NCBI GenBank assembly: GCA_963931925.1
Contig: OZ007579.1
Location: forward strand, 50,549,619 to 50,613,618
Source: Onchidella celtica
Lineage: Eukaryota; Mollusca; Gastropoda; Systellommatophora; Onchidiidae
Length of the DNA stretch: 64,000 bases
Direction: 5' to 3'
Below the pieces are notes generated by a model, which was not told where the DNA came from, ran no database searches, and was given only the letters and a program-made list of their open reading frames with translations. Shown here piece after piece: positions 29,707-59,083 of the stretch. The position numbers and the translations under genes were made by a program. Each line of letters starts with the position of its first letter. The first letter of the stretch is position 1.

Positions 29707-30150
29707 TCTATTATATATTTCAGTAACTCGCAACCTTTGGCATGACTAACTGACCAAACTACACACTCTTCAGGCCTTAAATTTGGCAGGGAGGTGGCAA
29801 TTGAGATAAGGAAGATGATGGCTATAATTAAAATTTGTTTACTTCAAGCATGTATTTTTAAAAAATAACAATGTTCATTGCTATATAACATCTGTATTTT
29901 TGCATGTTTGTTTCGTAATATTATAGTATCGTACATGTCATAAAAAGTAACCGTATCAAGCGTTCAGTTTGGCTATGCTGAGGTCCCCGAGAAACAAAAG
30001 AACTCATCCCGTTCAGTTTGGTGCGTAATGTTGTGGTGCGCATGAGTTCTGAAGCAAGACTGTAGTTTATTACTTTTATTATAGGCCTATGAGGGGGGGG
30101 GGGGGGGCACATGATTGTTTATTCCGGGCAATGCCCGGTAGGTCATCTAG
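29707..30150 (+). mobile_element. Non-autonomous Helitron, family A copy 2 (abuts copy 1)
   Basis: It starts TCTATTATATATTTCAG immediately after the CTAG end of copy 1 and ends CCGGGCAATGCCCGG..CATCTAG before T. It is about 90% similar to copy 1 by eye, with an extra block of about 50 bp near 29968-30016 that repeats the motif CGTTCAGTTTGG. Confidence 0.78.
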
Positions 30151-31627: not shown

Positions 31628-33009
31628 CTATTTTTTGTTGTTGTTGGCTTTCTTTTTTTTCTTATCACCCGAGTGTCTAGGGCGATGTACGGGTGACGAG
31701 TCTACAGATAACTGATCACAGCTCCGAGACAACCGTTTGCTACTTGATAGCCCTTCATTTTGACAAGTCCCTGGACTGGCAGGCGGCGATGAAAACTTTT
31801 CTTTGGAACATAAGAGTGCAGAACTGGGGGTAAATGGAGGGAAGAAAGGTGAAGGATTACTTGGTAATGACGTAGGTGAATGGGGTGAGGGGGGGAGGCT
31901 ACTAGGTATAGATTCATTGCTACTGATGACAGATAGGGGGCCACACGGTGGAGGACTGGCAGGGGATATCAGCGATGGGGTCGATGACCAGAAAGCTTTC
32001 TTGCTTGTAGATAATGTTCCATTGTGCAACTTGTTTTTGCGGGCATGTTTGGAGGATGTTTGCTTGGGGAGCGCCGGGGGTCTGGGTTGTGCAGGTGGCT
32101 TGATAGGGGTCTTTGTTACTGGAATCTTGGTGTGAATAGACACTTTATTGTCAACGTTTTCATACTCATTGACGTTCAAACGGTATTCGACTTTTCGAAG
32201 AAGATTGACATAAACGTGAGAGTCTCGGAGCGGAGCAGCGTCACTCATATTCTTCAGCAGCAGCGCCAGACTTGGGTCGCTGACATTCTCTAAATCCACA
32301 TGTTTTAGTAAGTTCCCAAACAATTTTTGTGTGGAACCAGATTCACGCTGATGATGCTCGGTGCCTTGTCCTCCACTTCTCGCGCCATTGCCAAATTGTT
32401 GCTCTCTCCAATTGATCCATCTCATAATGGCGGCCACGACTTCGTCAACACTAGCCCTCAGATGCGGACTTGTCAGTACTGTCTGCAGGACATGTTCAGA
32501 AATTGATAAAAAACTATCAGATTTTGCGAACTCAAAGAAGGTTTGACTCATAATGTCAATGATTACATTTATGACTGGTCTTGAGTTCAAACGTTTCCCA
32601 CATTCATAAAATCTCACCATATTTTTAGATGAAATTTCTTTCAGTACAACACTTTCGCATGCTCTCCATAGAAACGCAATTCTGAGAAGATGAGCAGCAG
32701 ACCAGATATCAACAACATTTTCTCGGGTGATAACATTGCACCCCTTGTAGATAATAGTCAGTACCAGTTTTAGTGTGTCAGCGCTCATACCGTCGACTGT
32801 AACTTCTGTCGGGATACCATTGCTCGTGTCGGTGTGAAGACGGGCCCTAAAGACTTCTGAGCATGCGCAGAGAAAAATTCTATGACAAAAAAACGCCCTG
32901 TCCTCTACTTTTACTACAACATCTGCCAGCACCGGATCATCAAAATGTCTGCCCAAGCAGCTGAAAACCCCTTCTGCTAACGTCACATCAACTTGTCTCT
33001 TGGCACCGC
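31628..33009 (-). CDS. BTB/POZ-BACK domain protein, terminal exon
   Basis: A single long exon encodes about 460 residues and ends at a stop at 31628. The frame stays open upstream of the GTG at 32986 to an acceptor TTTTTGCAG at 33010, so the start lies in an earlier exon (phase 1 junction). Counting from that GTG, a BTB fold spans about 15-118 (ADVVVKVEDRAFFCHRIFLC, YKGCNVITRENVVDIWSAAHLL), and a BACK-like helical region spans 120-265 (YECGKRLNSRPVINVIIDIM through LRKVEYRL). Residues 275-452 are low-complexity Pro/Ser with a basic end (KKKKKANNNKK). No kelch repeats follow. Family knowledge: BTB-BACK proteins dimerise and often recruit cullin-3 to ubiquitylation targets, with kelch repeats usually binding the substrate. 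Function here is inferred only from the domains. Confidence 0.88.
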
Positions 33010-33151
33010 CTGCAAAAAGTAAAACAAAACAAAGTGAATCGAAACCCTTGGGAAAACACGATCATGGGGGATCTCCAGAGAAAGATACCCCCCCTCCCCC
33101 CTCCCCCCCCCCCAACCTCAAAACAAAAGTTTCCGCCCACGATTTCCTCAC

Positions 33152-33236
33152 AGGCCCGTGCAAAGCTGCTGACAGGCTCAGGCCAGATGGGACATGCAGG
33201 CTCCATCATTTCAAACTTCTCAAGTAGTCTTGTCAT
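33152..33236 (-). CDS. Possible first coding exon of the BTB-BACK gene
   Basis: An ATG at 33236 opens 28 codons (MTRLLEKFEMMEPACPIWPE...) and then one base before a donor GTGAGG at 33151. That phase 1 junction fits the acceptor at 33010 exactly and gives a 142-nt intron with a good pyrimidine tract. The frame is also open further upstream, so the true start could be earlier. I recognise no domain in these residues. Transcript data would decide. Confidence 0.4.
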
Positions 33237-33317
33237 TACAGCTAAATAGATATGATTTGTGTTTTGGGTAGAAACTTGAATGTACTTACGTGGAATAATA
33301 ATAATAATCATAATCAT

Positions 33318-33860
33318 ATTATAAAGGAAGTAAAGTCTTCCATGTAATCACTAAAGGCTTTTTAACCGCTGAACCCAAAATTCTACAAAAGATCAGATTA
33401 CGCATAGAAGAGATAAAGGTGTGCGTGCATTTCCAAAGGTCCCGATGTTCACTTTATTATTTTTAATACTTTCGTCAATATTGAGCCACAGCTGAGATGA
33501 ACCAGAGAGTATATAGAGAGAGGGTTCACTATTGGTCGATTTGCACTGCGAGACACGGGAGGCTCTGTGAAACCACTGTTAGCATGGAGCGGAAAGTAGG
33601 TCGCTGCGGTAAATAATATCCCTATGTGCATTTCCACGGGGCGTAAGAGCTTATAAACGGTTGTAAATAGTTTCAGTCAGCCCAAAAAATATGAACAAAC
33701 CACAATAAACAGATATGTACACTATCTTTAGTGAAGAAGGTCTCTTTCAATTCTTCAATTTCATTTTACCGCAGCGACCTAGTTTTGCAATTTTGGTGGA
33801 AGTGAACCCTCTCTATACATATACTACTTGGCTGAACAGAGGAAGGTGGTCCGACATTTT
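33318..33860. repeat. Dispersed repeat C, copy interrupted by MITE B
   Basis: Starts ATTATAAAGGAAGTAAAG and resumes after the MITE with GAACAGAGGAAGGTGGTCC. It aligns with the copy at 29063-29272. Confidence 0.72.
33503..33830. mobile_element. MITE family B, copy inside another repeat
   Basis: It starts CAGAGAGTATATAG and ends in a decayed TIR (CTACTTG). Flanks are gatgaac (33496-33502) and gctgaac (33831-33837), six of seven identical. The surrounding repeat is present without the MITE at 29063-29272. Confidence 0.82.
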
Positions 33861-34229
33861 CCTCAACCAGGCTGTCGCTAAACGTAAAATTAGGATCGGA
33901 TCATGGTGCGAAAACAAAGACATCAACACAATCGGCACGTGTTTCCTTTGTTGCTGTCATTCAGTGTTCCCAGATTGGGAGGGAAACCGCGGAATCTATA
34001 TAAAAGGCTTTTTTATTATGCCACCTGCAGTAACCAAATTTTGCATGTGGGTTTCAAATACCGTGGAGGGCGCACCGAAGTTTGCATTTTTTTTAAAAAT
34101 GGTTTTGTTTTTGAATTTATGGGAAATGCATTTAGTTCCATCATGCTGCCAACAGTTGTAATTAAAAAAATTTTCATTTTCCATCTTGGTGTCATTCTGT
34201 TACATGACATACATGACATACACTAGTGT

Positions 34230-34431
34230 ATATCTATGCATACAAGTCATAAAAAGAAACAATATCAAGCGTTCAATTTGGTGCGTAGTGTCCTGGCGCG
34301 CATGAGTTCTGAAGGAAAACTGTACGCTATCACTTTCATTATATTAGAGAGCAGACAGACAGACAGACATGCAGTCAGAGACGACAGACAGACAGACAGA
34401 GGGGTGGGGGTGGGGGAGTTACGTCATCTAG
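34230..34431 (+). mobile_element. Partial family A Helitron (3' part)
   Basis: It matches the family A interior (CATAAAAAGAAACAATATCAAGCGTTCA, GGCGCGCATGAGTTCTGAAG) and ends GTTACGTCATCTAG before T. The terminal hairpin is missing and the G run is replaced by a CAGA repeat. I do not see a clear 5' end. Confidence 0.55.
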
Positions 34432-34437
34432 TGATAA

Positions 34438-34869
34438 TCTTACTATAATTGAGCTAGAGGGTGAACCTGTAAGCAGCTAAAAAATCACGACTACGCCATC
34501 AAAAATGATGAAACTTGGTGTACTGCATCCATTTTTTAGGAAGAGTTACGTGGACACATATATTTTGAACAAAAATCAGTCTTTACTATTACTTATATTT
34601 AAAATGTTTGAACCACAAAGACAGAGACACATTTTTATCGGATAGAACCGAAAAGTTTCACCGGAAATTGCGCTCTACGTCACTATTTACACATTGCAGG
34701 CCAAAAGTCAAGCAATCATAATTATCTGTGTATTTCTACGTACGATCTAATTTAAGTCTAATGGTCATGGCATCGAATCCAAATGCTGCTTTTAATTTAG
34801 CCTAGAGCTAGAATACGATCGGGCTTCCTACAAAGAATCTGCAAGATTTATCTCGCGCGGGTCGGCTAG
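34438..34869 (+). mobile_element. Candidate second-type Helitron
   Basis: It starts TCTTACTATAATTGAGC after host A and ends GATTTATCTCGCGCGGGTCGGCTAG before T. The end resembles that of the 17869-18588 Helitron but is shorter. It begins seven bases after the family A fragment. Confidence 0.45.
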
Positions 34870-35263
34870 TGATAATGATAATGGTACTACAAGGTTCTGA
34901 TCTCTATGGCGCTCTGCTCCTGACTGCGGAAGTTGCCTAGATACAAGGAGAACAAACACTCTCATATACATACATGCGTACAAACACAAGTACGCATACG
35001 CACAGTCGGACACACACACGCATACAACATTTATTAAACACGGCACAGAAATTCCACCAATGGTCTAAATACTTTTTTAAAACAAATGGATTTATAATTA
35101 TATTTAAATCAAGTGATGGATTCCAGCTCTTTGATGGACGCCCATTCCCGATACTAGGATCAAAATCTGAAAACAAACGACAACTGAATATTTCCAGATT
35201 AAAATCTATGAAGTGAAATTATTGCTGGTACTAGATGTTAACGCCCTCACTGGTTTATGAATA

Positions 35264-35556
35264 GACCCTTTTCACTTCCGCGTTACGGTTGTTTGGGGGG
35301 AGCCGCACGGCACCGAAAAGTACCGTGTAGGGCAAAAACCTCCACTTGCCTTAGTGATAGCATTTGAATATGTGCACAGTCTAAGCAAAGATGCATTTTT
35401 ATGCCAGAACCAGCACGTAACGGATTTGTGCAGTTGGGTGCCCAACAAGAGGAGGCATCGTTCGACTGTTGTCCACCGCTTCCGCCCTACAAGTGGGGCA
35501 CGCCGCCATTTTGTTTGCAAGTCACGTGATATGGAGGACGGTAAATGAAACGGGTC
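35264..35556. mobile_element. Candidate MITE with TA target duplication
   Basis: Ends GACCCTTTTCACTTCCG and CGGTAAATGAAACGGGTC are imperfect inverted repeats bounded by TA on both sides. The interior is GC-rich for the region. I see no transposase. Confidence 0.5.
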
Positions 35557-36041
35557 TATAGGAACAAGCTCTGAGGGGAGAACATTTTTGAACGGCTACA
35601 TAAAACCGCGATTGTATATTCTAATGTAGCTCTAACTGTGAGCCATTGCAGCTGTTCTAAAACAGGAGTTACTTGGCTAAGTTTTGGTGTTTTAGTAATA
35701 AGACAAGCTGCATGGCTCTCTATGCTCTGTAATTTGTTTATTCTTTCATAATTAGGCTGGTTAAACTCCTGAGGTACACGCAATTCATCTGTTACCAATT
35801 TTAATATAAAGTTATGAAGCGACATCTTTGCATATTTTTGCAATTTGAATTAAAAACTAATTTCTAGCTGAGACAAAATGGTTTAGAAGGCGATGCCAAA
35901 TTTGGAAAAACGGATATACCGAGGGGCGAAGTTATCTTCAACAACAACAACAACAAAAAGCACTTCATTTATTTCCCCTGGACCATAGCAGATGTGGATC
36001 TCCACTGTGGGATCGAGTGGTCGTTGGGTGACGTGAAACAG

Positions 36042-36435
36042 CACAGAGTATAGATGTATAGAGAGATCTCACTTCAGCCAAATCGCGAACCTAGGTCGCC
36101 GCGGTAAACAAGAAATTGAAGAATTGAAAGAGACCTCCTTCACCAAAGATAGTGTGTATATCTGTTTACTGTGGTTTGTTCATATTTTTGGGCTGATTGA
36201 AACTATTTAGAGCCGTTTGTAAGCTCTTACGGCCCGTGGAAATGAACAAATGGGTATTGTATACCGCAACGACCTACTTTCGGCTCCATGCTAACAGTGG
36301 TTTTGCGGCTCCTCCCGCTGTGCAAATCGACCAATAGTGAAACATACATACATACATACATACATACATACATACATACATACATACATACATACATACA
36401 TACATACATACATACATACATACATACATACTCTG
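36042..36435. mobile_element. MITE family B, inverted copy with (CATA)n expansion
   Basis: It is in reverse orientation relative to the other copies. It starts CACAGAGTATAGATG and ends ..CTCTG, flanked by gaaacag on both sides (36035-36041 and 36436-36442). The distal TIR has expanded into about 20 CATA units (36342-36430). Confidence 0.82.
36342..36430. repeat. (CATA)n microsatellite inside a MITE end
   Basis: About 20 perfect tetranucleotide units replacing the distal TIR of the family B copy at 36042-36435. Confidence 0.9.
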
Positions 36436-37784
36436 GAAACAGTCAGGCACGAAATGAACTTACCATTGTGAGGCACTACAGAGTTACGGCCCGGGGACTT
36501 TGGTACTGTGTTTTCTCCCCTGTCACGGCTCATGTTTGGTTGATCTGTATCCAAGGGTAAACAATGTAAATTAATGTTCTATTATCAATGAAAAACCTAA
36601 TTATTAACGTGAAGCATGACTGTTTTTCAATAAATTCCAAAGGTGTCGATGAAGATAACAGTGCGCTGATGACAATAATGAGATGAGGATGACGGTGACG
36701 ATGATAATGAAAGGATAATTGAGAGTGAAGTTGGCCTTGATGACAGAGAATAGCCTGATGGTAAAGATGGTTGTATGAGATGGTGACCACTAGGTCTAAA
36801 AATAATTTTGAATGTTTTGGATTCTGTCAGACATACTATCAACCTCATCCAGTGATGGCTGGAGTTTCCAAACTATAACACAGCAAAGAGAAAGTGGCAA
36901 GTCTTACGACGAAAACTGTGAGACAATAACAAAACTTAAAAATATGCCGCTTTCACATAAATTCATTTTAAAATAGTTTACGATGGACGAATGAAATTGG
37001 GAGTACATAAATATTCTTATTATGCTCAAGGATAACAATTTTCAACATTTAAGCCTGCCTTTTCCACCCCGAGTTTTATGGTCTAGCATTCCTCAGCTTT
37101 CCCTGTTCATATTTTGTAGAAGTTACTTCTCCCTGTGTTATCTTTTGGTAGTTTGGCTGCACTTGCCAGTGCAGCATTCAACATGCAATATTAAACAAAC
37201 ACGAGATAAGAAGCCGAGAAAAGTATGATTCCCGTAAGCATGGGCCTAGGCTGAATTGGTTTGCTTTCGATATTAAGAAATACAAGGCGAATTTCCCCAC
37301 AGCATGAAAGGAAGCAGTGCATTAAGTGCTTGGTACCAAGGATATCACTGGGATCTTCAGTCAACAATCTAGTGCATATATATAATATAAAACGTTGGGG
37401 CCATGTACAAGAGAGGGCGCTCGATATTTTTTACCTCTTCCACACAATATACGCTTTTCATACGCTTGGATCCCCCCTCCCGCCCCCCCCTCCCAAATCC
37501 GTTCTTACAAATGTACACTGTTACTAGCCTGGTGAATGTCAATGACAAGATCTTGACGTTGATAACTTAAAAGTGGTACATGTATTCTTTCATTAGAGGT
37601 ACGATTTTTTTATTTTTAATTTTTTTTTTTGCACAATGAAACAATTTAATTTATTGGAAAAAATGTAAACAAAACCAGAATTTCCAATCCACAATTATTA
37701 ATAGTAATTGAAAAACGTGCGGTTAGCTGTCCAGAACCACTGCTACCCCAGTGTACATTTTTTTTTTTGGCAGTCTGGGAGCAA

Positions 37785-37787
<3 letters not shown>

Positions 37788-37841
<54 letters not shown>

Positions 37842-37858
37842 TGTCTCTCTCTCTCTCC
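37788..37858. repeat. (CT)n(GT)n(CT)n microsatellite
   Basis: Compound dinucleotide run. The open frames across it (Leu-Ser and Cys-Val repeats) are artefacts. Confidence 0.9.
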
Positions 37859-38002
37859 CTTCCGAGCCTACGCACTCTTTCGGGTACATGTATGGATAGC
37901 CCCTTGCATCAGATTACAGCAAGCTAGGGCGTGGTCGCGTTCTGTTGTCGAATTGAAAAGCAATGGCTGTTTGCTCTCCTTGCACACAGGATGTGTGTAG
38001 GA

Positions 38003-38759
38003 TCTGTAACTTGCAACCTTTGGCACGAGTCACTGACCAAACTATACACTCTTCAGGCCTCAAATTTTGCAGGAAGGTGGCAATTGAGATAAGGAAGATG
38101 GTGGCTATAATTAAAAGTTGTTTACTCCAAGCATGTATTTTTTTAAAAATAACAATGTTTATTGCTATGTAACATCTGTATTTTTGCATGTTTGTTTCGT
38201 AATATATAGTACCGTGCATGTCATAAAAAGTAACCGTATCAAGCGTTCAGTTTGGTGCGTAGTGTTCTGGTGCGGTTGAGTTCTGAAGCAAGACTGTAGT
38301 TTATTACTTTTATTATATGAGAGAGAGAGAGGGGGGGGGGGAGCACCACAGACTAATAAAATACCCAGACTAGATGATCCCATTGTGTGGCGTCACAAAA
38401 CAGCGAAAGGTCATGAACCATCCGCCATTCTAGGTTTACGGTAGCGACCGACGCTTCAGCATAGCTACAATTTTTAATGATACCATTTTGACGCGCCTGC
38501 TGAACGTGGAAGTTTGGTTCCGCACCAAGAAGCTAATACATGTACAACCAATCTTGACAAATAAAAAGAAATGTCTACTACAGATAGAACTAGAACCGGA
38601 ATTTCCCCAGCGGCGGCCATGTTGGTTATACAGTTGCCGCTCGGGAAATTCCGTAAAAAACGACATACCCCGAAGCTCGTGTTTCCAGCCTGGTTAATTT
38701 ATTAGTCTGTGGGGAGCACATGATAGTTTATTCTGGGCAATGCCCGGTAGGTCATCTAG
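38003..38759 (+). mobile_element. Non-autonomous Helitron, family A copy 3, split by a MITE
   Basis: It begins TCTGTAACTTGCAACC after host A and ends with CTGGGCAATGCCCGGTAGGTCATCTAG before T. A 365-bp MITE (38347-38711) is nested in its G-rich part. The interior matches the copies at 29.3-30.15 kb. Confidence 0.78.
38347..38711. mobile_element. MITE with 14-bp TIR and 8-bp TSD, nested in Helitron
   Basis: The ends are CACAGACTAATAAA and its exact reverse complement, flanked on both sides by gggagcac (38339-38346 and 38712-38719). An 8-bp duplication fits hAT- or P-type elements. The interior is GC-richer than its surroundings and has no recognisable coding. Confidence 0.8.
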
Positions 38760-39506
38760 TTTCTAGATATTGCATAGCGCAGCCAGGTCAGAGAGACCGA
38801 TTTTGTAACGCATACAAAAGGGAAACATTAAACGGATAGACTCACCTCTAAAGATCTTTTTACACATTTTATTTGGGCAATATATATGGCTGAAGACGAA
38901 ATCCCGATGCTTTCTGGTTATTTACAAATCAGCAGCAGCAGCAGCAACAACAACAACAACAACACGTAGGAAAAAGCCGTCTAACAGCATCAGCTGGGCT
39001 TTAGCTCAATGGTTGTTGGTTACGAACTGAATCGTCCGTCCGCACGGTATGGCAGAATTGACTTCAGCTAACAAGCCGAGACATATTCAGTTATTGTTGA
39101 TGTGTTTGTTCGTTGTTGTTGTTTTTTTTTTTGTAATTGAAGAGGGTTTTTCCAAAAGTGGGTAAGTCAAATTTTACATGACTTATGGTCTCTTCCAGAT
39201 AGTCATTCAAAATTAGTGTAAAACGAGATGTAGGCCTAAGTGTTCAGTTAAAACTGGCTATGAGCCCGTCTTTATCCGTACACTTACTTTAACTTACTTA
39301 CACTTTAACCGAACACTTACACCGCGTTTTACATTAATTTTGAATGGCTATTTGAAAGTGGCCGTAACTCAAGCAAAATTTCAATTTCATTTCAATTATT
39401 TTGGGCACGTTAAAGATATCTTGGCAGTTGAAAGTCGAGAAGAGCAGGCCGAACAAGGTCGGTTGCCGGGGCAAAATTCTCAAAAACAAATCCCTAGCAC
39501 AAATAA

Positions 39507-39600
39507 TAATAATGTATAGCATTTATATAGCGCATAGCCATTTAAAATGCTCTATGCGCTTTACAGAAACAACATGTCAACCACAGAGTAGAATGGAGCT
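39507..39600 (-). mobile_element. SINE tail fragment, same type
   Basis: The reverse complement of (AAT)n ATGTATAGCATTTATATAGC..GCTCTATGCGCTTTACAG matches the tail at 5040-5122, including the preceding CTCTGTGGTTGACATGTTG. Confidence 0.6.
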
Positions 39601-39710
39601 GCCTGCGAAGCGCTCAACACACTACACTGCTTCTTTCTCTCTCCCTGTCTCGCTCACCCTCTCTCTCTACCTCTCTATCTCAGAGAAATTGTAACGCAGC
39701 CTGTTAGGCG

Positions 39711-39862
39711 CAGTTCACAACTCACAACGGTTCACAACTCACAGCAGTTCACAACTCACAACAGTTCACAACTCACAGCAGTTCACAACTCACAACAGTT
39801 CACAACTCACAGCAGTTCACAACTCACAACGGTTCACAACTCACAACAGTTCACAACTCAAA
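39711..39862. repeat. 17-bp tandem repeat
   Basis: About nine units of GTTCACAACTCACAACA/G, alternating CACAAC and CACAGC endings in part. Confidence 0.88.
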
Positions 39863-41904
39863 TAATATTTGAATATCTATTAATAATAATATATATTTAA
39901 TAATGAACAATAAATTTTGTTGTTGCTGGTGGGTGGGGGGGGGGGGTGGTATGGATAAATTTTAATCTATTAAATTTTGATTTTGCCCGAGTAGATGAAA
40001 AAACACAAAAATTCAACCACAAAAACACACCGAAACAAGAAGAAGAAAAATGAAAAGAAGAAAAGTGAAGTGTAAATGTCAAGGACAGCGAAATCTCCTA
40101 CAATAAAGACGTATCAATCCAATTTCTAACTTCAATTTTTATTTTTTCCAGAATTCATTGCAGGTTTTGGTTTTGTGATTTCTAACGCGGGACTTGGCGA
40201 TCTACAATACCCGCGCCCCCTCCCCATACACAAATTCGAACTTTCTGGTTATTGATATCAAATATACTAGAAATGATAAGATGAGACAGTTCGGGGTTTT
40301 CGCGTACACGTGTTTCGCAGCGCCACCTTGTGGCGTCAGCGTGAGAGATGTAAACAACGGCATTTTTTACAAAGCCGAATAGAGAAAATGCCGAGTTTTT
40401 TTTTCATTGTTCGCCTATCACGCTAGGCCTTGGTGGATGTCGCTTTCTTTGTAATTATAAAGTAATTCGTTGTAGGAAACCTCTGACTATTTCTTTCCTT
40501 TTTGAATGTGATAACAATGACACAATCGTTTTATTCCTTTTCCACCATACCGAAGATAGATCTACTATATTAATTTTTTGGAATAAGATGAGACCGAGGC
40601 TGGATTTTTCGTTTATGACGTAACTCGCGGGCTCTGTCTCCAAGTGGCAAATGCAAGAAAGAACGTAAACAACAGCGGGAACTGTGAAGGGTTTTGAAAA
40701 CGTTTAAGAACTTTCCTTTAACAATAACAGACTAACCTTAGATTTTCCTTCTTCTCGTTTTTCTTCCTCTTCTTTTTCTTCTAAAAAATCACGAAAAATA
40801 CACCACCGGCGATAAACACATGAACCGCTGCACTAGAGAAGCCACACGCACATTTCTAGATAATTGCCTGTAGTGCCATCTCGTGAAAAATCGGTTTCTC
40901 TCTCTTTTTCCTTCCTTTATCCGCCCTTTTTGTGCTTTGCTTTATTAAAAAAATCATTATTAAATTAGATACTATATAATATTGAAATATTTGGACAGTG
41001 AAATTACCTCTGGAAGCGAAACCGGTAGGTGTTGTGTCTTATTTTCTATGCAAATCCATTGCACTAAGCGCTGGTTGTGCCCGCCGAGGGTGGGCGGTGC
41101 CCGGGACCGGATAAGAGGCCGGAAGAATTGAATGCCTGATCTTATCAATTTTGTATCTTTGTCAATATTACCCCCCCCCCACTCCCCCCCAGAAGCTTCT
41201 GGAAAATGTCTCTAGACGTTTGATATGGACAAATTTGTCTGAACTGAGTTTTTAAAATAATGTTCATGATTTAAGCTCTAGGCGAGAGAGACTGTTTAGA
41301 TGGTGGACATTCTTTCATTTGTGGTGAATGATGATGATGACGATGTTGACGACAATGGTAACGATGATGAAAATGGTGATGGTGATGATGAAAATCTTGA
41401 TGCCATGATGACAATTATTGTGGTAGATAATGATGGTGATGATGTCGATAATGAATGATGATGATGACGATGATGTGATTAAATAATGGTCATGATGGTG
41501 ATGATGATGATGATGATGATAATGATAATGACGGCATGATGACAGTTGTCATAAGATAATGATGACGATGATGATTATAATGTGATGATAATGTTGTAAT
41601 GATGAAAACGAAAAATGAAGACATGATTGAAATTGATGAAAATGAAAACGGAGTGATGTGCTTATAACAAAATGGAATGGCTGAAGTTGGAGAGAAGCTG
41701 AGACGGGTGAGGTTGTACGGATAACACACTGAAATTCAACTTACAGATCCTGAGAACAGATACACCGTCAACTTTACATCCCGTCAGAAAAGAGACGTTT
41801 GAAGAACAGACTTGCTATGCTTGCTCCGCAGGTTAAAATATGAAATGATGGGTTAAACTTACGTCCGTGTTTATATTTCTCGACGAAATCGCTTCTATCC
41901 TGCT
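39863..41904. other. Non-coding, one diverged repeat pair
   Basis: The segment at about 40300-40480 resembles 62990-63180 (TTTCGC.., GCCGAAT.., TTTGTAATTATAA). Otherwise GAT repeats and AT-rich sequence; no coding evidence. Confidence 0.4.
41330..41600. repeat. (GAT)-rich imperfect microsatellite
   Basis: Interrupted GATGAT and GACGAT runs, strongly asymmetric between strands. Confidence 0.8.
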
Positions 41905-42450
41905 TGTAGCGTCCCACTAGTAGGACGATCGATATTTTCTCACCCCCGCTTGGCGAGTCTCACTCGGCGACCTTCCTCCCCCCTCTCGCCAGCAAGGCCG
42001 GTATTTTTCTTTGATGTGGTTTGTTTGTTTCACTGTAGAATGTCTAGAAAATCTAGAAGGTACTGCAGTGTCCGAGATTACGCTAGGTCGACCTTGAGTG
42101 ATGTAATTCTGTGACGTGTCTGTGTACGATTGGGTGGCCTGTATGTGTCCCGAACGATCTAGGTCTGTCTCGTGCTTTTGGGGCGGTTAAGCCGCTTCCT
42201 GAACGTTCCTAGACAGAATATATATAAGGAGGGCCAGGCGAGTAGGAGTGGTGCAAATCGTGGGTGAAAATCGTAAGGTGCAAATCGTGGGTGAAAATCG
42301 TAAGGCGCAAATTGTAGGTGTAAATCCAGTTGTAGTAGAAGTGTAGTGCCTTCCCTGATAGGTGTAAGTAACTTGTGGATATCAGCTCTTGTTTACAGTT
42401 ATTAAACGCTAGTATTAATTGTTCATCGGATCCTGTTATTTATTTCTACA
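41905..42450 (+). mobile_element. Candidate LTR with TATA box
   Basis: TGTAG..CTACA ends, a TATATATAAGG box near 42218, two and a half copies of a 27-bp unit (GTGCAAATCGTGGGTGAAAA...) at about 42252-42320, and ATTAAA near 42400. No target duplication is visible, so it is tentative. Confidence 0.4.
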
Positions 42451-43219
42451 ACAGTTCGAGACAGTTTCGTTTTTAAGGGGTAGACGATCAGTTCATCTGA
42501 CTCTCCCCATTATAACGTGCTGAAATTTGCATCAACTGTTACACTGCTGTTTGCTATATACCTACCCACTTTTGCACCCAGGTTTGCAGTTTTTAGAAAT
42601 CATTCGTTCGTCGTATTTGTCCTTTTCCAAATACACAAAAGAAGGTTCACAATTGAGGCAGAACCAGCTACGTCGCCCCCGCAAATCTCATTTTTTAAAG
42701 TAATTTCAATTTACACTTCTACCACAATAAAACAGCCGGTAGAGGGGACATTTCAAAATAATGTTTTCAACATTACTATTGAAGTTCAAATAACAATAAA
42801 AAAAAATAGCACATGACAGTGTCGTTTTATTATTTATGAGCAGCAAATGATGAACAAAACAAAAAATGTGTACAAATCCAGAATCAGAACATTTATCCCC
42901 CTCGTAACCAAAAATTTACCCTCTGGACAGTGTAACAGGGTGACAGACCGGCAAGGTATAACTAGCGTGGGAAGATAGTTAACGGCGGGGAGACAGAGTT
43001 ATTGTAGGCCAGAGGGGGAAAGTAGCCGATGCAACTGAAGCGCTTTGACACCCGAAAAGGGTAGTGTTTACTTGACCGCCGTACTTGACGATCAGATCAC
43101 CTGGGAATTGCTTGGGGGGTAGAGATGCTTCAATAGTATTTGACGTGGAGTCGACGGGGGTGGCTATTAGGATAACTAATGTACACTCGGTGAGCGTCTT
43201 GGGACGCTACCCGACTGGG

Positions 43220-43254
43220 TATAAATCCCCGAACGCTCCTTCCAACTTCAGACC
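43220..43254 (+). promoter_or_regulatory. TATA box and initiator-like site
   Basis: TATAAAT at 43220-43226 is followed 30 bp later by an initiator-like TTCAGACC. A donor-like GTAAGT occurs near 43419. It could be an LTR promoter or the start of a non-coding transcript. No gene is recognised downstream. Confidence 0.35.
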
Positions 43255-43898
43255 GCTGAGATGCCTCACCAGCTTCGTGCCGAAGAGGAGACCACAACTG
43301 CAACTGTAACTTTGTACTAGTCTTGTGAGTGGGGAAGGTCAGGGAACCCGCAAACATCCTTTGTCAGAGCGTGGTATCTTTGGTATCTTGTCGGCATTTG
43401 AGCTGTTGCTGAGTGGTAAGTTAATTGTACGATGTATGTGTATTTTACTTAATGTTCATAATTGTAGAACCTAAATCTAGCGGGTTTACTTTGGTATAAC
43501 TACTGCCTCTGAGAGAGTCACGGAAACGCCGTTATATATATGTTACGAAACCTTATAGGATGGGGTCTGTTAGAGAGAGCGTTATTCTTCGTGGGGAACG
43601 TGTAAATATCATTAAAACTGTATTGATCGTTTATTCTATTGCCTATATGGGAGCCTATGGAGTATGGGAGCTGCAGCCTGACTTATAACAGTGTCAGCGG
43701 TTAAAAGTATTAATGATGAATATCCGTCATGGAGTAAGTATGGAAGTCATGCCTTCCAGCAGTAGATTAGGAAGTTGCGATTGTTTTTCAACAGAGGAGG
43801 AAGAACAACACCTTCTTGGCTTCTCAACTTCTTGTCCTTTGATTTACGACATCGTGGCGTCTTGGCTTCCCGACCTATTGGCACCTGCCGACACCTGT

Positions 43899-44238
43899 TG
43901 ATCTAACTGCGCAGTCAAGCCAGAGTAGAGAGGAAGAACCAGTGCCCAGATAGCGCCATACACCCCTAAAGGAGAGGTTTCCTTATGCTGAATGTACCCA
44001 TGTGTTTTATAAAATGTGCTAGAAATTGAATATTACGAAGCCCTTTTAATTATCATGTACTGATTTGCATTGATTTCATTCCATCGAAATTCACGTGAAA
44101 TTGTATGACCTATGTTCCTATTATTATTGAATGAATTAATAATTATTGTATAGATAAGCAATACAGATATCGTTTGTTATAACTTATAGAAGACAGATAG
44201 TGTGTTTGTGCCGTGCCTATCACGGCTGGTGTCAGAAG
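43899..44238 (+). mobile_element. Candidate LTR end with tRNA-Leu-type primer site
   Basis: TGGTGTCAGAAG at 44227-44238 is complementary to a 3' end CTTCTGACACCA, as in many Gypsy-type elements primed by tRNA-Leu. A possible LTR (TGATC..CTATCA) precedes it at 43899-44222. A similar GTGTCAGCGG follows another TATAACA end at 43690. No gag or pol follows; a minisatellite does. Confidence 0.35.
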
Positions 44239-44282
44239 AAAGTTAGTGAGAGGAAGAGTGAGAGAAAGTGGAAACAGCACAG

Positions 44283-45165
44283 ACAGGCAAAACTTATTCT
44301 TTGGGAATGCAAAACTTATTCTCTGTACAGGTAAAACTTTTTCTCTGGGCCTGCAAAACTTATTCTCTGGGCAGGTAAAACTTATTCTCTGTACAGGTAA
44401 AACTTTTTCTCTGGGCCTGCAAAACTTATTCTTTGGGCATGCAAAACTTATTCTCTGGGCAGGTAAAACTTATTCTCTGGGCCTGCCAAACCTATTCTTT
44501 GGGCATGCAAAACTTATTCTCTGTACAGGTAAAACTTTTTCTCTGGGCCTGCAAAACTTATTCTCTGGGCAGGTAAAACTTATTCTCTGTTCATGCAAAA
44601 CTTATTCTCTGTACAGGTAAAACTTATTCTCTGTACAGGTAAAACTTATTCTCTGGGCATGCAAAACTTATTCTATGGGCAGGTAAAACTTATTCTCTGG
44701 GCATGCAAAACTTATTCTCTGGGCAGATAAAACTTATTCTCTGTACAGGTAAAACTTATTCTCTGTACAGGTAAAACTTATTCTCTGGGCATGCAAAACT
44801 TATTCTCTGGGCAGGTAAAACTTATTCTCTGGGCATGCAAAACTTATTCTCTGGGCAGGTAAAACTTATTGTCTGTACAGGTAAAACTTATTCTCTGGGC
44901 ATGCAAAACTTATTCTATGGGCAGGTAAAACTTATTCTCTGGGCATGCAAAACTTATTCTCTGTACAGGCAAACCTTATTCTCTGGGCATGCAAAACTTA
45001 TTATATGGGCATGCAAAACTTATTCTCTAGGCATGCAAAACTTACCTTCTGGACAGAGAAACTTACCTTTTGGACAGACAAAACTTATTCTCTGGGCAGA
45101 CAAAACCTACTTTCTGGGCAGAGAAACTTACATTCGGGACTGGCAAAACTTATCCTCAGCGGGTC
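44283..45165. repeat. 22-bp minisatellite, about 40 units
   Basis: The unit AAAACTTATTCTCTGGGCAG repeats with three junction variants (GGGCATGC, GGGCAGGT, GTACAGGT). Units near the 3' end are more diverged. Because 22 is not a multiple of three, the array cycles through frames without stops and gives long spurious ORFs. Confidence 0.92.
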
Positions 45166-46188
45166 ACTTTATCCCAGGTTGGGGACCGCTGGTTTAGCAC
45201 AAGGACGCCACGCTACAGGGAACACATTTTGAATTGGGTGTCCGATGTTTGTCTCGTCCAGTTGTTGAAAACAATAGAAAACATTTCAGAGCCACTCACG
45301 CGTGTAGACAGCCGCATGAAATCTTGATATTATTATAAAACAAACTGTTGCAGCGCTGAGGAAGCAGTCGACATCTACAACACTGAGGTTGGTGAGGAGG
45401 ATCTTGACTAAGCTGTGGCTCTCCTGTGAGTACTTCTGTTAATACTGTCAGTGTCGGGATGGAACCAGCTCTCCTTGTCCAAATTAAAAGGAAAACATAT
45501 TAACGGCCATTTCAAATGCCCAGAATGTTCTTTTTCTCTTTCAAATCCAAGAAAAATAAATCCCAAATGATATGACTTAAACCTGGAATTACGCTTTACT
45601 GATAGGTTCCAACCCTGTACCAGAAATATGTTTGTAGTCCCTTTGAACGTACTTAAAATACGCATGTGAGATTAAAAAAAAACAACATCAAAACTAACAT
45701 GCTAAATGGTCTAAAAACTGTTGCATTGTTCAATTCTCCATGAAATCACATCTTCATGTCATATTTCTTCTGAAATGCTCCGGTTGTAAAATTTTGCAGC
45801 ATTTATTGACAATAGACATTGCTGCTTGGTCCATAATCATGAACACAGCAAAACGGGCTTCCGTAATGAGTTTTCGCTGCCGAGGGGGGTAATAAATTTT
45901 GCGGTGACACCGGAATTCATTCCGGGCATCAGCCAGCTTCGTCGGCTATGGTACCCCATTTTGGTCGTGTAAGCGCAAAAGTCCAGATTTCAATTTTTTT
46001 TATTGAAAATTTTAGTGTGTTAGCTCCCTTCAAAATGGGTAAACAATGATTCATTTTACCCAGGCAATCATATAGATTCACGTGCAGTAAAAATAATTTA
46101 TGTTGCAATTAGTTTGAGGTTAAAGTGTATCCTTACTGGACCAAACACGTTAATGTTGGTACTGAATAAATAGCAAGTTGAGGGAGAC

Positions 46189-46518
46189 CAGAGAGTATAG
46201 ATGTATAGAGAGACTTTACTATTGGTCGATTTGCACTGCGAGACACGGGAGGCTCTGCGAAACCACTGTTAGCGTGGAGCGGAAAGTAGGTCGCCGCGGT
46301 AAACAATATCCGTATGTGCATTTCCACGGGGCGTAGGAGTTACAAACGGCACTAAATAGTTTCAATCAGCCCAAAACTATGAACAAACCACAGTAAACAG
46401 ATATGTACACTATCTTTGGTGAAGGCGGTCTCTTTCAATTCTTCAATTTCTTGTTTACCGCAGCGACCTAGTTTCGCGATTTGGCGGGTGAACCCTCTCT
46501 ATACATCTATACTCTCTG
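46189..46518. mobile_element. MITE family B, copy with 7-bp TSD
   Basis: TIR CAGAGAGTATAGATGTATAG at both ends in inverted orientation. It is flanked by gggagac (46182-46188 and 46519-46525). The interior has conserved blocks CGATTTGCACTGCGAGACAC and AACAAACCACAGTAAACAG. It has no coding capacity. Confidence 0.85.
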
Positions 46519-47079
46519 GGGAGACACACAAACACTAGTACACAACAGATTTCAATATTATCATCCTAATATAGAAGGCTGTGGAAAGTATAGATTATTG
46601 ATAATGGAGTATTTACACTTGTATAGAATATGTCTCCGCGAAGTGGCCTATAGCCACAGTGTGGACACAAGGCAGAAACGGTCATAACTAAATCTCCCCC
46701 CCCCCTCTCTATCTCTCTCTCTCTTTCACACACACACACACACTCTGCCCCCTCTCTCTCTTCCCGCCTCTCTTTCTCTCCCCCCCCCCCTCTCTCCGCA
46801 TACTCACACACAAGTTTCAAGTTCAAGTTCATTGTAGGCCTTGACGGCTGGTTCAAAAAATATACAGGAGGATCATGCCAAGAAGCCCTGAAGAAACATT
46901 GTAAACAGAACGCACGGTCATTCACTCTCTCCGCTCCTTGCTGCCTATTACTTATTTACTTATAATAATATACAATAAAATATAACGACTGATAATTGTC
47001 ATCTTTCTTCAACCCCTTCCAACCCACCTTTATCTGTCAAATTTACATTTCAACACATGGAAAAATTCAGTATCCTGAC

Positions 47080-48129
47080 TGTCACGAGCGAGTGAGCGAG
47101 GATCAATAGTTACGGGGAGAAGGGGGTAGAGTAAGAGTAACTCACGGCCCACAATTAATGGAAAGCATGGAATGTTGTGAGTTGGGGGGTTTGGAGGAGG
47201 CGAGATCGGTGTACTACAAGTCACTGCAAGTTAAGAAGTCCAAGGGGACAGACGTGAAGAAAGCAGTCGGGAGATTGTTGTGTTTTCCAGTGATGACTGG
47301 TAGGTTGAACTATGATTGATAATTATGATGATTGATGTACTATATTCACCTATGACCATGATGTAAATAAGTTATATGTGAGGAATGTGAAAGTCATTGA
47401 TTACTGTGTATAGAGATGTGCGCAATGAGCGATAGATGTAAGTTAGGATCATGGATTCGTACCGAGTCTGAGTACTGTGTAATACGGTAGAGGTGTGTTA
47501 CCGTAGAGAAGTGCAGATGTGTGGTGAGTGAAATGTGGACTGTTGTGTGTACGCTTGATGGTTCGTAATGAGTGGTGAAGTGGATAGTAATTGTATGGTG
47601 TTATAGAGATGTAATGTTATTCTTATAGGTGCCGGGGTCGGGCCGTGAGGCTACCCGTGGTGGAGAGACTAAGGCAGGGGATAGGCCAGCCTGAGTGAAG
47701 CTGTCGCGCAGGACAGCGAGAGCACATTAATCGTGGCAGTCTGGCCACAGACAGGGACGTTATGTATTAAGATATTAATGTGCTATTAAGATATTGAGGG
47801 GAGATTGAGATACTGAGATTAGGTTGAGCAGGAGCCAGTAAGATAGGCCCGCAAGTAGTACATACATTGAGGTGAGGCTGAGGCCGGAGTATATTTTAGA
47901 AAGTTATTATCGGGTTGTGGACCCGGAGATAGAATGAATGTTGGGAATAACGACCATTGGATGGTATTTGAATTGAATAATGTACTGTATGTAATTGCAC
48001 GTATATCTTTATCTTTATGTATAATAAATGTGTGAGTCTGTTTGGTTGTTCTGTTAAGTGTTATACTTGTTCGTTCGTGATTGTTGTCCTGTCATAATCA
48101 TTACATCTCCCAGTCTGGGATTTGTGACA
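47080..48129. mobile_element. Solo LTR with 5-bp TSD
   Basis: Begins TGTCACGAGCG and ends TTTGTGACA (inverted TGTCAC/GTGACA). It is flanked by ctgac on both sides (47075-47079 and 48130-48134). It contains ATAATAAATGTG near 48022, a poly(A) signal on the plus strand. No internal retrotransposon region remains. Confidence 0.75.
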
Positions 48130-49024
48130 CTGACCTGAGACACATAGGCTACAAACATACTTCCATACTGTACAACACATACAAGGCTTTAAGGGAGACA
48201 TCGGCAGTTAGTCAGTAGATAGTTCAGATACGGGGCGGATTTTACTTCCGCTTGGAAATTCTCAGAACAAACGGATAGCGTCCTTATTGTGTAGCTACCC
48301 TTCGGCCAATTATATCCGGCAGTTCTTTTTTTAGCCCGGGGGGGATTGTACTGATATTGTGGGATTTCAATTACATTTTTTGTTTGTTTTTACTTAAGAA
48401 ATGACGTTATAAAGCTTCCTCTATTAAGCTGACGTAAATTCTGACGCATCTCGATTTTGTGACGCAGCCTTGTATTCATACAATTTCACACGATTAATTC
48501 TTTCTTTGTCAGAATACGCTCTGCATTCTTTGGAGTAACTAGAGTCGTGACTTCTAGTGATTCGGGACTTGGCCTGAGTACAGTGATACAGGTGTTGATA
48601 CTGAAAAGCTATCCAAATCTAGGTAAATATTTCAATTCAAGTACAACAGTTTTTCCCCTCTCCTGTTGACACTAATGTCAGGTTCTTCGCAGGTGCAGTT
48701 TCCTCCTCCAGGCTTCACAGTCTATGGTTTGAAACATCACCTGATGTGTCAAAGGTCAACAAAGGACAACATTTCAGGGTTCACACAGAAAAAATTCGCA
48801 GCTATTCAACTGGGATTTTGGAATTTGAATTAACATCCTCATTTATGTTGTCTCGTTTTTCCCCCCTTCTTTCACTGTGTAGATCTCTCCTAACCTCGTT
48901 TCACTGAATTCAGGGTCGACCATGTGCAGTTTCATTCGAGCGTAAAGCCTTCCTTTCTTCACAGTCTCGGGTGGCTTCAATTTGGTTAAATTTACTTTCT
49001 TTCAAACATAACCTTTCACCAATG

Positions 49025-49115
49025 AATTCGATAAGATGAAAGGGTTGAGGATAAGGACGGGGTTAGGGATAGATACGTGTACGTACGCGCCCCTAGGGCA
49101 AAAGGTTTGGGGTGC
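49025..49115. repeat. Single unit of the 54-kb minisatellite, inverted
   Basis: GATAAGATGAAAGGGTTGAG, GATAAGGACGGGGTTAGGGA and then TACGTACGCGCCCCTAGGGC match the reverse complement of 54375-54450, including its flank GCGCGGACGTATACGTACC. Confidence 0.75.
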
Positions 49116-49224
49116 GTACGTACAAGTAACAACAGTCATTTCGATGACATTGCCCATGATACACCTCTCTCCTGGGCAGCTGATGAAATAGCAAAAGAAC
49201 AGAACCGATGGTGGACATTAGGGT

Positions 49225-49530
49225 ATGGTGTACAATTGTGGGAGGCCAGAGAGAGGGAGAAAGTCAGAGACGGAGAGAAAGAGAGAGAGAGAGAAAGAAA
49301 AAAGGAGAGAAAGAGAGAGGGAAAGAAAGAGAGAAGGAGAGAGAGAAAGAGAGACAAAAGAGAGAGACAAAGAGAGAGACAAAAGAGAGAGAAAGAGAGA
49401 GTCAAAAAGAGAGAGAGAGAGAAAGAGGGAGATTAAAGGAGAGACAAAAAGAGAGAGACAAAAAAGAGAGCGAGAAAGAGAGAGACAAAAAAGAGAAAGA
49501 GAGAGACAAAAAGAGAGAGAGACATACATA
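49225..49530. repeat. Purine-rich GA/GAGACAAAA satellite
   Basis: Purine-only stretches of GAGAGA with GAGAGACAAAA units. Open frames of R/E/K on one strand and L/S on the other are compositional. Confidence 0.9.
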
Positions 49531-49734
49531 AAGGATGTAGCCTACTTGTGAAAAGCTAAGAGAGTGAATGCACAACTCTAAAACATGACAACTGGAGGTC
49601 AGATTAGATCATTGACAAACTTAGAACAGACATAGACATAAGACTAAGAGTTTTCGGTCACAGTGACCTCCATCAGGCATTATAATATCCACTGTATTTG
49701 TACACAAAACAGATGAAGGAGAGAAATAATTAGG

Positions 49735-49990
49735 TTGATGAATGAATGAGTGAATAAAAAAATGGTTGAATGAATGAATGAATGGTTGAATAAAGGAATG
49801 AATGAATTAATGAATGAATGATTGAATGATTGAGGAATGAATGAATGAATGAATGATAGAGTGAGAGAATGAATGGTTGAATGAATGAATCAGTCAAATC
49901 AATCAATGAATCAAGGAGCGATTAAAGGAACGATTGAATGAACGAAAGAATGAATGAATGAATGAATGAATAAATGAATGAATGGAAACA
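49735..49990. repeat. (GAAT)n microsatellite
   Basis: Interrupted tetranucleotide GAAT/GATT run. Confidence 0.88.
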
Positions 49991-50432
49991 CTAACAGTAT
50001 GTAAATGAATGATGTGGGTTGCCACAAACCAGACAGAGGATGGACAAATAATGAAATAATAAACAAATACTTTTATAAAAAACAAATTATAAATAACAGA
50101 AGAATATGAATTGGCACATACACCTTTTCAAACATCGGTCTAAGTGATGGAGGTAGTACACAAAAGAACAACAGAACTATAGTAAATGTAGAAAACGTTT
50201 CTTTTTTATTGCAGAAAAATGATTCCGCTCTAAACAAATGGGCAAAAAATGCAACAATAACTTTAAAAAAAAACACCAAACCAGTTTGAGTTTGGAGAAG
50301 TACAGAAAAACAACAACGACGATATCAAAATGCCTGTAGATCTGCCGTGTGCATGGATTGAGTCAAAAGTGTGCTGCACGGTGCGATGTGATACTGAACG
50401 AGAAGTAAGTGAATATATGTGCTAAATATTAC

Positions 50433-50769
50433 CAGAGAGTATGTATGTGTAGAGAGGTTTCACTATTGGTCGATTTGCACTGCGAGACACGGGAGGCTCT
50501 GCGAAACCATTGTTTGTTAGCATGGAGTGGAAAGTAGGTCGCTGCGGTAAACAATATCCGTATGTGCATTTCCACGGGGCCTACTAGCTTACAAACGGTT
50601 GTAAATAGTTTCAGTCAGCCCCAAAATATGTACAAACCACAGTAAATAGATATGCACACTGTGTTTGGTGACGACGGTCTCTTTCAATTCTTCAATTTCT
50701 TGTTTACCGCAGCGACCTAGTGTCTCGATTTGGCGGAAGTGAGATCTCTCTATAAATCTATACTCTCTG
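50433..50769. mobile_element. MITE family B, copy with 7-bp TSD
   Basis: Same TIRs (CAGAGAGTATGTATG and TCTATACTCTCTG) and interior as the 46.2-kb copy. It is flanked by atattac on both sides (50426-50432 and 50770-50776). Confidence 0.85.
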
Positions 50770-50834
50770 ATATTACAAAAAAGCCATCAATTAGCCCCGA
50801 ATAGCCTAGATGTTATTGAGGGAGGGAGAGAGCT

Positions 50835-51022
<188 letters not shown>

Positions 51023-51272
51023 GAACAAACAAACTCGGGAAAATACATCCATGAAGTTTGCTCTTACGGCGTTTTGATTTTGAATTCCTCATTTGATGCT
51101 GTTGAATTATATAAACGAGACAGCAGTACAAAGTGCTGAAAATTTCAGTACAATATGGTACAAAATATCTACATGTAGGGGACCGACTTGTGCTCCAGAC
51201 AAATGTCTACGTTACTGCCTGCTTTCGTGGGTAATGGCCGCACGATCAACTTTCGTAACTCCAATTTTTTTT

Positions 51273-51475
51273 TTCAACAAGTAGATGAAGTTCCCGGCAT
51301 TATCCGGGATAAACCTGTGAAACCACTGCTCTATCTCTCTCTCTCTGTTTTTGGTCTAAAAAGCTTCCCATATTCTACAGTCTTATTACAGATTTCATGC
51401 GCACCAGAGCACTAGTATGCACTCATTTCTGGTAGAGAAATTGCGCATACCGAACTGAATGCGTATTAACATCGT
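51273..51475 (-). mobile_element. Degenerate family A Helitron remnant
   Basis: The reverse complement resembles family A (GCGTATTGA/CATTCAGTT.., GGTGCGCATGA.., CCCGGATAATGCCGGG). The final CTAG has become CTAC. It is strongly diverged. Confidence 0.4.
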
Positions 51476-54396
51476 TTCCGGTGCGGTGGGCTTACCACAG
51501 GGAGTCAAATCAAAGACCATTGTATTTTACTTTTTTACTACTTTTTCATTTAAACATACCTGAAACTTGAATCAACACAATCGGTCGATACAAAAGCGAT
51601 TGGGCTGGATTAGTTGACACTTAAGAAAATTAATCTTACAATATTTTTTTGAAACTGTCATTTAGGCTGTATCGTCGAGCAAATAAAAGGGCCAAAATTT
51701 GCACCACAATGAATTACTCCCGCCACTATTTTTTTAATGATAAGATTGAGGTAACTGGCATGCTTGTATGTTGTGGTGGAAGTTATGGATCAAATACTGA
51801 AAGTTAAGGGTTAAATAAGTTGTGTTTTTTTTTAAATATCGTAGTTACATGTGACGTTAGATAAAGAACGCTATCTGGATTTTTTGCTTCTCTTGAAAGA
51901 CATAGTAAAAACCGAGTTACGACAGCTCACCAGGCGGACCTCGACATATTAGGGTTGTATTTGGGGTCAGGGTTACAGGTAGGTTTGGGGTTAAGCTTAC
52001 TGTTTATCTCAGCATTCAGTCAGAGGCGTGTCCAGTTCGGTCTGCTACACATATTGGGGGTAACATAATTATAGGGTAAGAGATCAAGGTGAAGGTGAGC
52101 GTAGGGTTGAGATTATCTTTCAAAGGCCACTAGTCAGCACATTTAACAAGGGTACGGTAGTTCCAACCTTTTAACATCAGTTCTTCGGCTTCTCGAGGGT
52201 CTCAGCCTGAGGTGTTGCTCTCTCCCGCCTCCCAACCTTTTAATATCAGCCGGCCTTGCACTTAAAATAAGCCGGACCTCACGTGTATCTTCGATTATAT
52301 TATGAATAAACATACATGTATTATATCTATAATGTACCCCCCCCCCCCCCACCACATTACTAACAAATTGAAATCAAAATGACAAAGTTACATAGACTGA
52401 ATATCAATTACGTTTGGACCTGTGAACTATCAGGGATTGGATATCAAGACAAAAAAAAGCCCGCCCACACCCCCCGAAAAAAAAACTTCAACACAGCGTC
52501 CAAACTCTCACCAAAGCGGCTTAAGATTCAACCAATCAAAAAAAAAAAAAAGTGCCTGTTCCTTATCTGTTGTTTTTAGTGTGAGCTAAAACTCAACACA
52601 TTTTGATGACTCTAGAATAAATCATGTCAAAAAGAAAAAAAAAAAATCTGCAATAATTGTGCCCGTGATGATGATGGTATGAGGGAAGGTAGGCCTACAA
52701 TAAATATAATGATGATAATGATTTCCATTATACTGCTCAACAATTACATAAACAGAAGTTAAAATAATAATAATAATAATAATAATAAACATGGTCTTCC
52801 ACAATGAAGGTTTCTCTCTCTGTTCAAATCTCAACATTCCATTCACTGACAAAAAAAAATCCTGACCAAATCTCATTCTACAAAAATCCAACCTTCTCAA
52901 AGCTGCACTGATCTTTCTTTCATTTTCTGACACTGTTGTTGCTACTGTACATTTCAAATCTACTAAATTGTTATTTTTCTCACAACCTGGAACTCCCATG
53001 GACTTCCATTTAAGCAACTGCCAAACTGCCCATAATTTTAGAGAAAGGGTGGTGGGGGGGGGGGGGGGGGAGAAGAAGAAAAGAACAGCACTTAGGCTTT
53101 AATCTTCATTCCACCAAGTGGAATTTGTCCACAAATAGCATTAAATAACCAAAGACGTCCCAAAACAAAAATCCAAATAGAATTTAATTTTTTTTAAATA
53201 TGAAAGTACAAAAAAGTCCCATTAACTGCATAAAAATTTATTCGATTTTAAAATTCAGACTGTAATTTCCTCATAGTCTGGCATATTCTGTTCAAAGTTT
53301 TTGTTATTTTCCAAACTACATTACTTAAGCATTGATTCATAAACATCTTGTACAAGCAACTTGCTCAACAGGGGAAGATTCCATCTTAAGCTAAGTTTCC
53401 ATGTGTACGGAAACGGAAACGAAAACATCAAAACCCTTGCAGGTGGAGAAATACAAAGAAAATATTCATGGCGTTTCTGCCATGCACGATGGAAAACACG
53501 GGTTCTTTTTACATCTGAGTCGATTTTTGACGTTTTCACTGCCATTTCCGTACACACGAAAAACACAGGTTCAGTATGTTTCACACACCAGGACAGTGAC
53601 CACTGGGATCCAGTCACAGGCTTGGAGCCTGTTCGGGACGTTGTTCAGTCCGGCTCAATCTAGTAAATATCTCCCCCGTGTTATTTTTAAACTCTTATTA
53701 GCCTAAACAACTCTCATGCCTTATTGTGTGAAGTTTTTGAACTTGCGTCTGTTCAATTTCCTTTAACTTGATATAACTCTAATAAGTGCATAGTGCATAA
53801 TATAAAAAAAATGTATTTAAAAAAAACTTAATAATAAAATACGGGCAAAACCGAAAAAAAACACAAACACCAACACAACTGACGTCATTCTGGAGGATCT
53901 AGGGGGGGGGGGGGTGGGGGGAAACTTGAGCTAACATTTAGCCTGTATTCTAGGATCATTGTACTAAAAAGGAATCAAAATACAATAATTCCCCCAGCCC
54001 GAGAGGTATTGCAATGAAAGGGACGTTTTGGGAGGCACTCGGTGCTGTAAAGAAAAAATTGTAAACAACCGTAAGCCTTTCATCTTTCACTGAACAAATC
54101 ATTCAAGGCTCGTTGCTGACGCACATAAATGACGTTCACATCGACAGATTTCGAAAATGGGTCAATGGGAATTTTTTTCGTATTTCAACAGCCTCCATTC
54201 CGGTTCAACCACCAAATGCAGCAAAGCCAGATGTGGTTTCTCGGCCTGGTGTTGTTGCTTGCACTTAGGACATCACAGTGGTGGTGGTGGGAGGAGGGGG
54301 TGTACAATAGAAACTTTCAAAACATTCTAAACTGGCTGTTGTTATAAGAACGTACGGTTTCCAAGCGTTTTGCCCCAGAGGCGCGGACGTATACGT
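51476..54396. other. Non-coding, nothing recognised
   Basis: AT-rich sequence with C, G and A runs. Part of 51835-51945 resembles 58262-58375 (ATATCGTAGTTAC.., TTTTTGCTTC). No motif-bearing ORF. Confidence 0.4.
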
Positions 54397-58984: not shown

Positions 58985-59083
58985 GGCTTCCATATGAAAA
59001 ACTCAGAAACCACTTAAAAACATTCTCAGCACAAGCTTTCCAAGTTTTCCCACAAGCTCTATACATACAGAGAGCAACCCCTT

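Follow-up and report, generated by a model that had tools for sequence, protein, structure and literature searches.

The classical P element is mobilised by cut-and-paste, its two strand transfers are spaced by 8 bp, and its target-site duplication, or TSD, is 8 bp (PMC7776569). Galileo, a Drosophila member of the P superfamily, instead has 7-bp TSDs (8 bp at three copies) with the palindromic consensus GTANTAC or GTATTAC (PMC4168063, PMC2775673), also given as GTAGTAC (PMC2775673). Short derivatives are also on record: the P-MITEs (P-derived miniature inverted-repeat transposable elements) of Anopheles gambiae carry the 5' and 3' ends of P, are flanked by 8-bp TSDs and number 44-571 copies (PMC1562414). 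This report concerns MITE family B, found in a 64,000-nucleotide stretch (the window) of contig OZ007579.1 of the gastropod Onchidella celtica. Its copies duplicate 7 bp of target, and the family very probably belongs to the P superfamily.

MITE family B and its target sites

Four copies with a common terminal inverted repeat (TIR) and interior lie in the window at 33503-33830, 36042-36435 (inverted, minus strand), 46189-46518 and 50433-50769, just as originally predicted. With copy 3 (46189), the best preserved of them, as a blast query, the other three are recovered at 87.6-89.1% identity together with a fifth, diverged match at 59081-59262 (plus strand, 70%), a fragment of the MITE interior with unclear ends. 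The TIR pattern occurs five times in the window at two mismatches or fewer, against 0.07 expected. Copies 2, 3 and 4 have GAAACAG, GGGAGAC and ATATTAC, respectively, on either side (7/7 each), while copy 1 lies between GATGAAC (33496-33502) and GCTGAAC (33831-33837), a 6/7 match; direct repeats of 7 bp had been claimed at all four, and the claim stands with this one imperfect. When flanks of 2 to 12 bp at the exact TIR ends are compared, 7 bp is the best length and the only one to give a perfect match. At any one fixed position a perfect 7-mer would turn up with a probability of about 6e-5, which means that three in four are not due to chance. A repeat at 29062-29272 aligns over the joined flanks of copy 1 at 75% and contains the target once (GTTGAAC, 29243-29249, plus strand), as expected of an empty site. 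Copy 2 needs correction on two points: it begins with CACAGAG, and its other TIR has mostly given way to a (CATA)n microsatellite.

The 1.14-Gb assembly (43 contigs) yields 3597 first-look candidates. Scores were computed for 40, and the 30 best of these were retrieved; these 30 loci, one being window copy 3, and the three other window copies make up a table of 33. A perfect 7-bp TSD flanks 28 of the 33 copies, and two more, L028 and window copy 1, match at 6/7. L014 seems to have an 8-bp TSD with a single mismatch; none is readable at L009, which adjoins another copy, or at L022, which has lost its left end. The tabulation of flanking duplications over genomic copies, proposed with the original prediction as its check, thus bears out a family with 7-bp TSDs. 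The targets have in common a palindromic motif, RT...AY, and, less strongly, T at -3 with A at +3; the alignment rows run in mixed directions, which is immaterial for a palindrome. L006 and L016 have identical flanks and are not independent; with L016 left out, all four motif places fit in 15 of 27 perfect TSDs, compared with 2% of window 7-mers.

A 333-bp consensus, built from 32 copies with all rows in one direction, has a TIR of 32 bp (97%) and an inner, sub-terminal inverted repeat of 25 bp (94-118 vs 264-288, 96%). The arms of the inner repeat lie at 46282-46303 (plus strand) and 46454-46475 (minus strand) in copy 3, and the remaining three copies in the window contain the first as well. 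The longest stop-free stretch of the consensus is 59 codons. The 29 genome-locus copies, window copy 3 (94.9%) among them, are 94.6-98.2% identical to it, and the other three window copies 90.2-92.7%.

A P element with the ends of the MITE

Because Galileo has 7-bp TSDs, the genome was searched for the P RNaseH domain. There were 1146 first-look candidates, and all 150 that were scored exceeded the cut-off. Among eight regions retrieved at 8 kb each, only L074 has MITE ends at its own two ends. Its 5' end matches consensus positions 278-333 (87.5%, E 2e-15), and its 3' end is about 76% identical to positions 1-118 (E 4e-19) and 173-234 (E 1e-7); the inner repeat GGTCGCYGYGGTAAA likewise recurs near either end. 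Between these ends lies an 870-aa open frame with five P-transposase domains, each over its Pfam cut-off: THAP, the Tnp_P_element helix-turn-helix (HTH), RNaseH N, GBD and RNaseH C. The protein aligns to the solved Drosophila P transposase (6p5a) at E 1.6e-49, with the D, D and E residues aligned and kept. A THAP-like start, MANSQC..., in another reading frame upstream of the 870-aa frame is probably the first exon of the gene.

Since both of its ends match this P element, family B is identified as a P-MITE and not as a Dada derivative. L074 displays the protein hallmarks of the superfamily that the MITE lacks, i.e., THAP, HTH and an RNaseH domain split by a GTP-binding insertion; the MITE itself has the terminal architecture, a TIR of about 30 bp followed by a sub-terminal inverted repeat (32 and 25 bp in the consensus). 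Of the Dada- or P-like origin suggested at the outset the P half is upheld, and the question of the transposase, then left open, is largely settled at the level of the superfamily, if not of the exact master.

We consider it very likely that family B lost its transposase by internal deletion and is moved by a P-type transposase made elsewhere. The TSDs, the target motif, the ends in common with L074 and the 7-bp TSDs of P elements of the same clade (see below) are the observations on which this rests. A P-type element with CAGAGAG termini would have lost its transposase gene through internal deletion. The remaining 330 bp or so would comprise its 5' end (TIR and sub-terminal repeat, now the right end of the MITE) and some 230 bp from its 3' end. 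A THAP transposase of P type, supplied from elsewhere in the genome, would then bind the sub-terminal inverted repeats and act in trans, excising the element and inserting it by strand transfer staggered by 7 bp at a palindromic RT...AY site; repair of the staggered insertion would yield the 7-bp duplication. We infer the steps in trans from the ends and TSDs that the MITE has in common with P elements, and the actual master would be not L074 but a close relative.

L068 (G000:C17:39312390-39320389) also has MITE sequence, but as a family B copy split by a P element, which has a 916-aa frame and an 8-bp TSD. The lineage of this P element therefore moved after that MITE had inserted.

A closer master was sought through the TIR itself. 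The TIR pattern with a non-MITE continuation occurs at 58 places, compared with 10 in the control, and many of the 58 can be recognised by eye as ends of MITEs that carry small indels. Two of the 58, L065 and L066, were retrieved as candidate autonomous copies, and both proved to be MITEs interrupted by other inserts: one insert reads as long terminal repeat (LTR) retrotransposon-like from its repeated end frames, and the other is SINE-like (short interspersed element), with a duplicated CTTCCACC. A TIR-plus-TSD scan of 30 P loci of 3.4 kb found nothing. Outside this genome, two patterns gave no matches in viral contigs; bacterial genome contigs gave four stray 18-mers only, and phages no match. 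The search for autonomous copies with the same TIR, the other check proposed, gave no P element with a near-identical TIR; the related one with ends 76-88% identical came from the search for the P RNaseH domain.

Duplication length among P families and the choice of transposase

Three P loci of this genome stand close to L074 in protein identity: L072 (54%), L070 (40%) and L055, which lies in L076 (41%); the remaining loci of the 38 compared are 22.7-28.8% identical to it. In a tree that covers 19 of the 38 rows and is rooted at the midpoint only, the four group together with support of 100/100. In the L072 family (TIR CAGAGACC), nine of ten copies are readable, with eight perfect 7-bp TSDs and one at 6/7; the tenth is without a recognisable 5' TIR in the retrieved piece. 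The RT...AY motif had been derived from the MITE sites with that of Galileo in mind, so the L072 family is an independent test: seven of its eight perfect TSDs fit, against 2% of window 7-mers. The L070 family has perfect 7-bp TSDs in four of four copies, with a shifted 8-bp reading also possible at L075, and L076 has one in the single case read, chosen by the TIR-plus-TSD scan.

Outside the L074 group the length is 8 bp: two of two for L067/L068, read from the printed junctions, four of four in the L071 family, and one of one for L073. An automatic scan gave 6 bp for L067 with the TIR set one base out; the extra base is absent on the left of L068. At L069 the ends were not found and the TSD is unreadable. 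TSD length thus does not vary inside any family read, and in this genome it goes with the clade, four families (one via the MITE) against three. A fragment of the Drosophila P transposase falls into the 7-bp clade with 100/99 support, on a branch 3.84 long that the tool flags as a case of long branches meeting. Drosophila P is an 8-bp element, and its place in the 7-bp group counts against a simple two-lineage rule. We suggest only tentatively, with the balance tipping slightly the other way, that TSD length is heritable in P-transposase lineages, two of which, deeply split, would coexist here (7 vs 8 bp, with TIRs starting CARAGA vs CATxGA or CAAGGAG), the 7-bp lineage with its Galileo-like target driving a MITE family whose candidate copies run into the thousands. 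Both lineages would have near-identical, hence recent, copies.

Several points weigh against the assignment of family B to P. The classical P element has 8-bp TSDs and the MITE 7-bp ones; an 8-bp TSD, however, does not define the whole superfamily, because its member Galileo has 7 bp. The table of TSDs draws on best-scoring copies only and is a biased sample. The ends of L074 are only about 76-88% identical to those of the MITE, not a close match; its 3' end bears an additional TIR-like sequence, and a decayed element of the same kind precedes it in tandem, which makes the TSD of L074 unreadable. The TIR-pattern search of the genome found no P element with a near-identical MITE TIR, nor did the TIR appear in the 30 P loci, whose flanks extend only 1.5 kb.

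One rival reading takes family B as a MITE of the hAT superfamily whose 7-bp TSD is atypical and which depends on a hAT transposase. The TIR start CAGAG presumably fits the pattern of hAT elements; the 8-bp TSD of hAT is not that of family B, though 7 bp is annotated for some hAT families. Such an origin is nonetheless very unlikely, given that both MITE ends match L074 and that the target motif and TSD length agree with those of P-transposase elements of the same genome. For a derivative of the Dada superfamily, with its 6-7-bp TSD, duplication length alone speaks (PMC3706591, PMC8869645). In 2013 Dada was described as lacking TIRs, with all families with clear termini inserted in small RNA genes (PMC3706591), softened later to "many of which" (PMC8869645). 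Family B has 32-bp TIRs; no transfer RNA genes were found in the window and no Rfam matches in 33000-51500. On TIR and target Dada is rejected, and its chance of being the source is close to nil.

A different possibility leaves the P origin intact and concerns the present source of transposase: the P-derived MITE may now be moved mainly by an L072-type enzyme, whose elements start with CAGAGA and include several near-identical copies. L072 and the MITE have the RT...AY target and the 7-bp TSD in common, ten stop-free 616-aa open frames are taken as the L072 family, and its TIR is present at both ends in eight of nine retrieved end pairs. Past the first bases of the TIR, however, L072 has no significant similarity to the MITE, nor did it show the inner repeat. 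Such cross-mobilisation is improbable, if less so than a hAT origin. Movement by a close relative of L074 remains the preferred account.

Neighbouring features and comparison with known systems

Another MITE lies at window 38347-38711, with a TIR (CACAGACTAATAAA) matching at 14/14; its flanks, GGGAGCAC, are 8 bp long and adjoin a poly-G run. The repeat that hosts it has an uninterrupted relative at 29369-29722. The family B copy at L066 (G000:C13:18326800-18331800) holds a 20-bp insert, CACAGACTTATTAGTCTGTG, that apparently consists of nothing but the two TIRs of the 38347 family, with an 8-bp duplication, AGGTCACT. An open frame with a BTB/BACK domain occupies 31628-33061 on the minus strand, some 440 bp away from MITE copy 1, and a 459-aa reverse transcriptase frame (RVT_1), probably from a non-LTR element, occupies 8395-9774, also on the minus strand. 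A 76-bp perfect inverted repeat with a 10-bp spacer lies at 22512-22673, and tandem arrays at 44151-45088 (22-bp units, with four further unlisted copies beyond) and 54306-55209 (42-bp units).

Both 8-bp P-MITEs (Anopheles) and 7-bp P-superfamily elements (Galileo) are already in print. What seems new is their combination in a 7-bp P-MITE, and a TSD length that tracks the transposase clade within one genome. The accessible literature on P elements with MITEs, THAP proteins, and molluscs or snails, a coverage that takes in few subscription papers, contained nothing recognised as the same, and the MITE TIR (as a 15-mer, or as "cagagag" in a transposon context) was not found in the literature searched. 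The accessible text of a bivalve transposon survey has no occurrence of "P element" or "P superfamily" (PMC10294476). An orphan MITE family thereby gains a superfamily, and P-MITEs gain a 7-bp case. Since P families of either TSD length, 7 and 8 bp, occur side by side in this genome, the determinant of strand-transfer spacing in the transposase can be tested by comparing relatives.

Drosophila P and zebrafish Pdre2 resemble the system described here in their TIR with a sub-terminal inverted repeat, their P-type transposase and their internally deleted copies, and differ in their 8-bp TSD (PMC7776569, PMC10983969). Galileo has a P-superfamily transposase and a GTANTAC-like 7-bp TSD, also seen in family B, but its TIRs are long and internally repetitive, whereas that of family B is 32 bp. 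The P-MITEs of Anopheles gambiae likewise have P ends at both sides and far outnumber their P masters. They differ in the length of the TSD, 8 bp instead of 7, and in copy number, 44-571 compared with 3597 first-look candidates here. Their centre, moreover, is unrelated to P, whereas family B can be aligned to P ends over most of its length.

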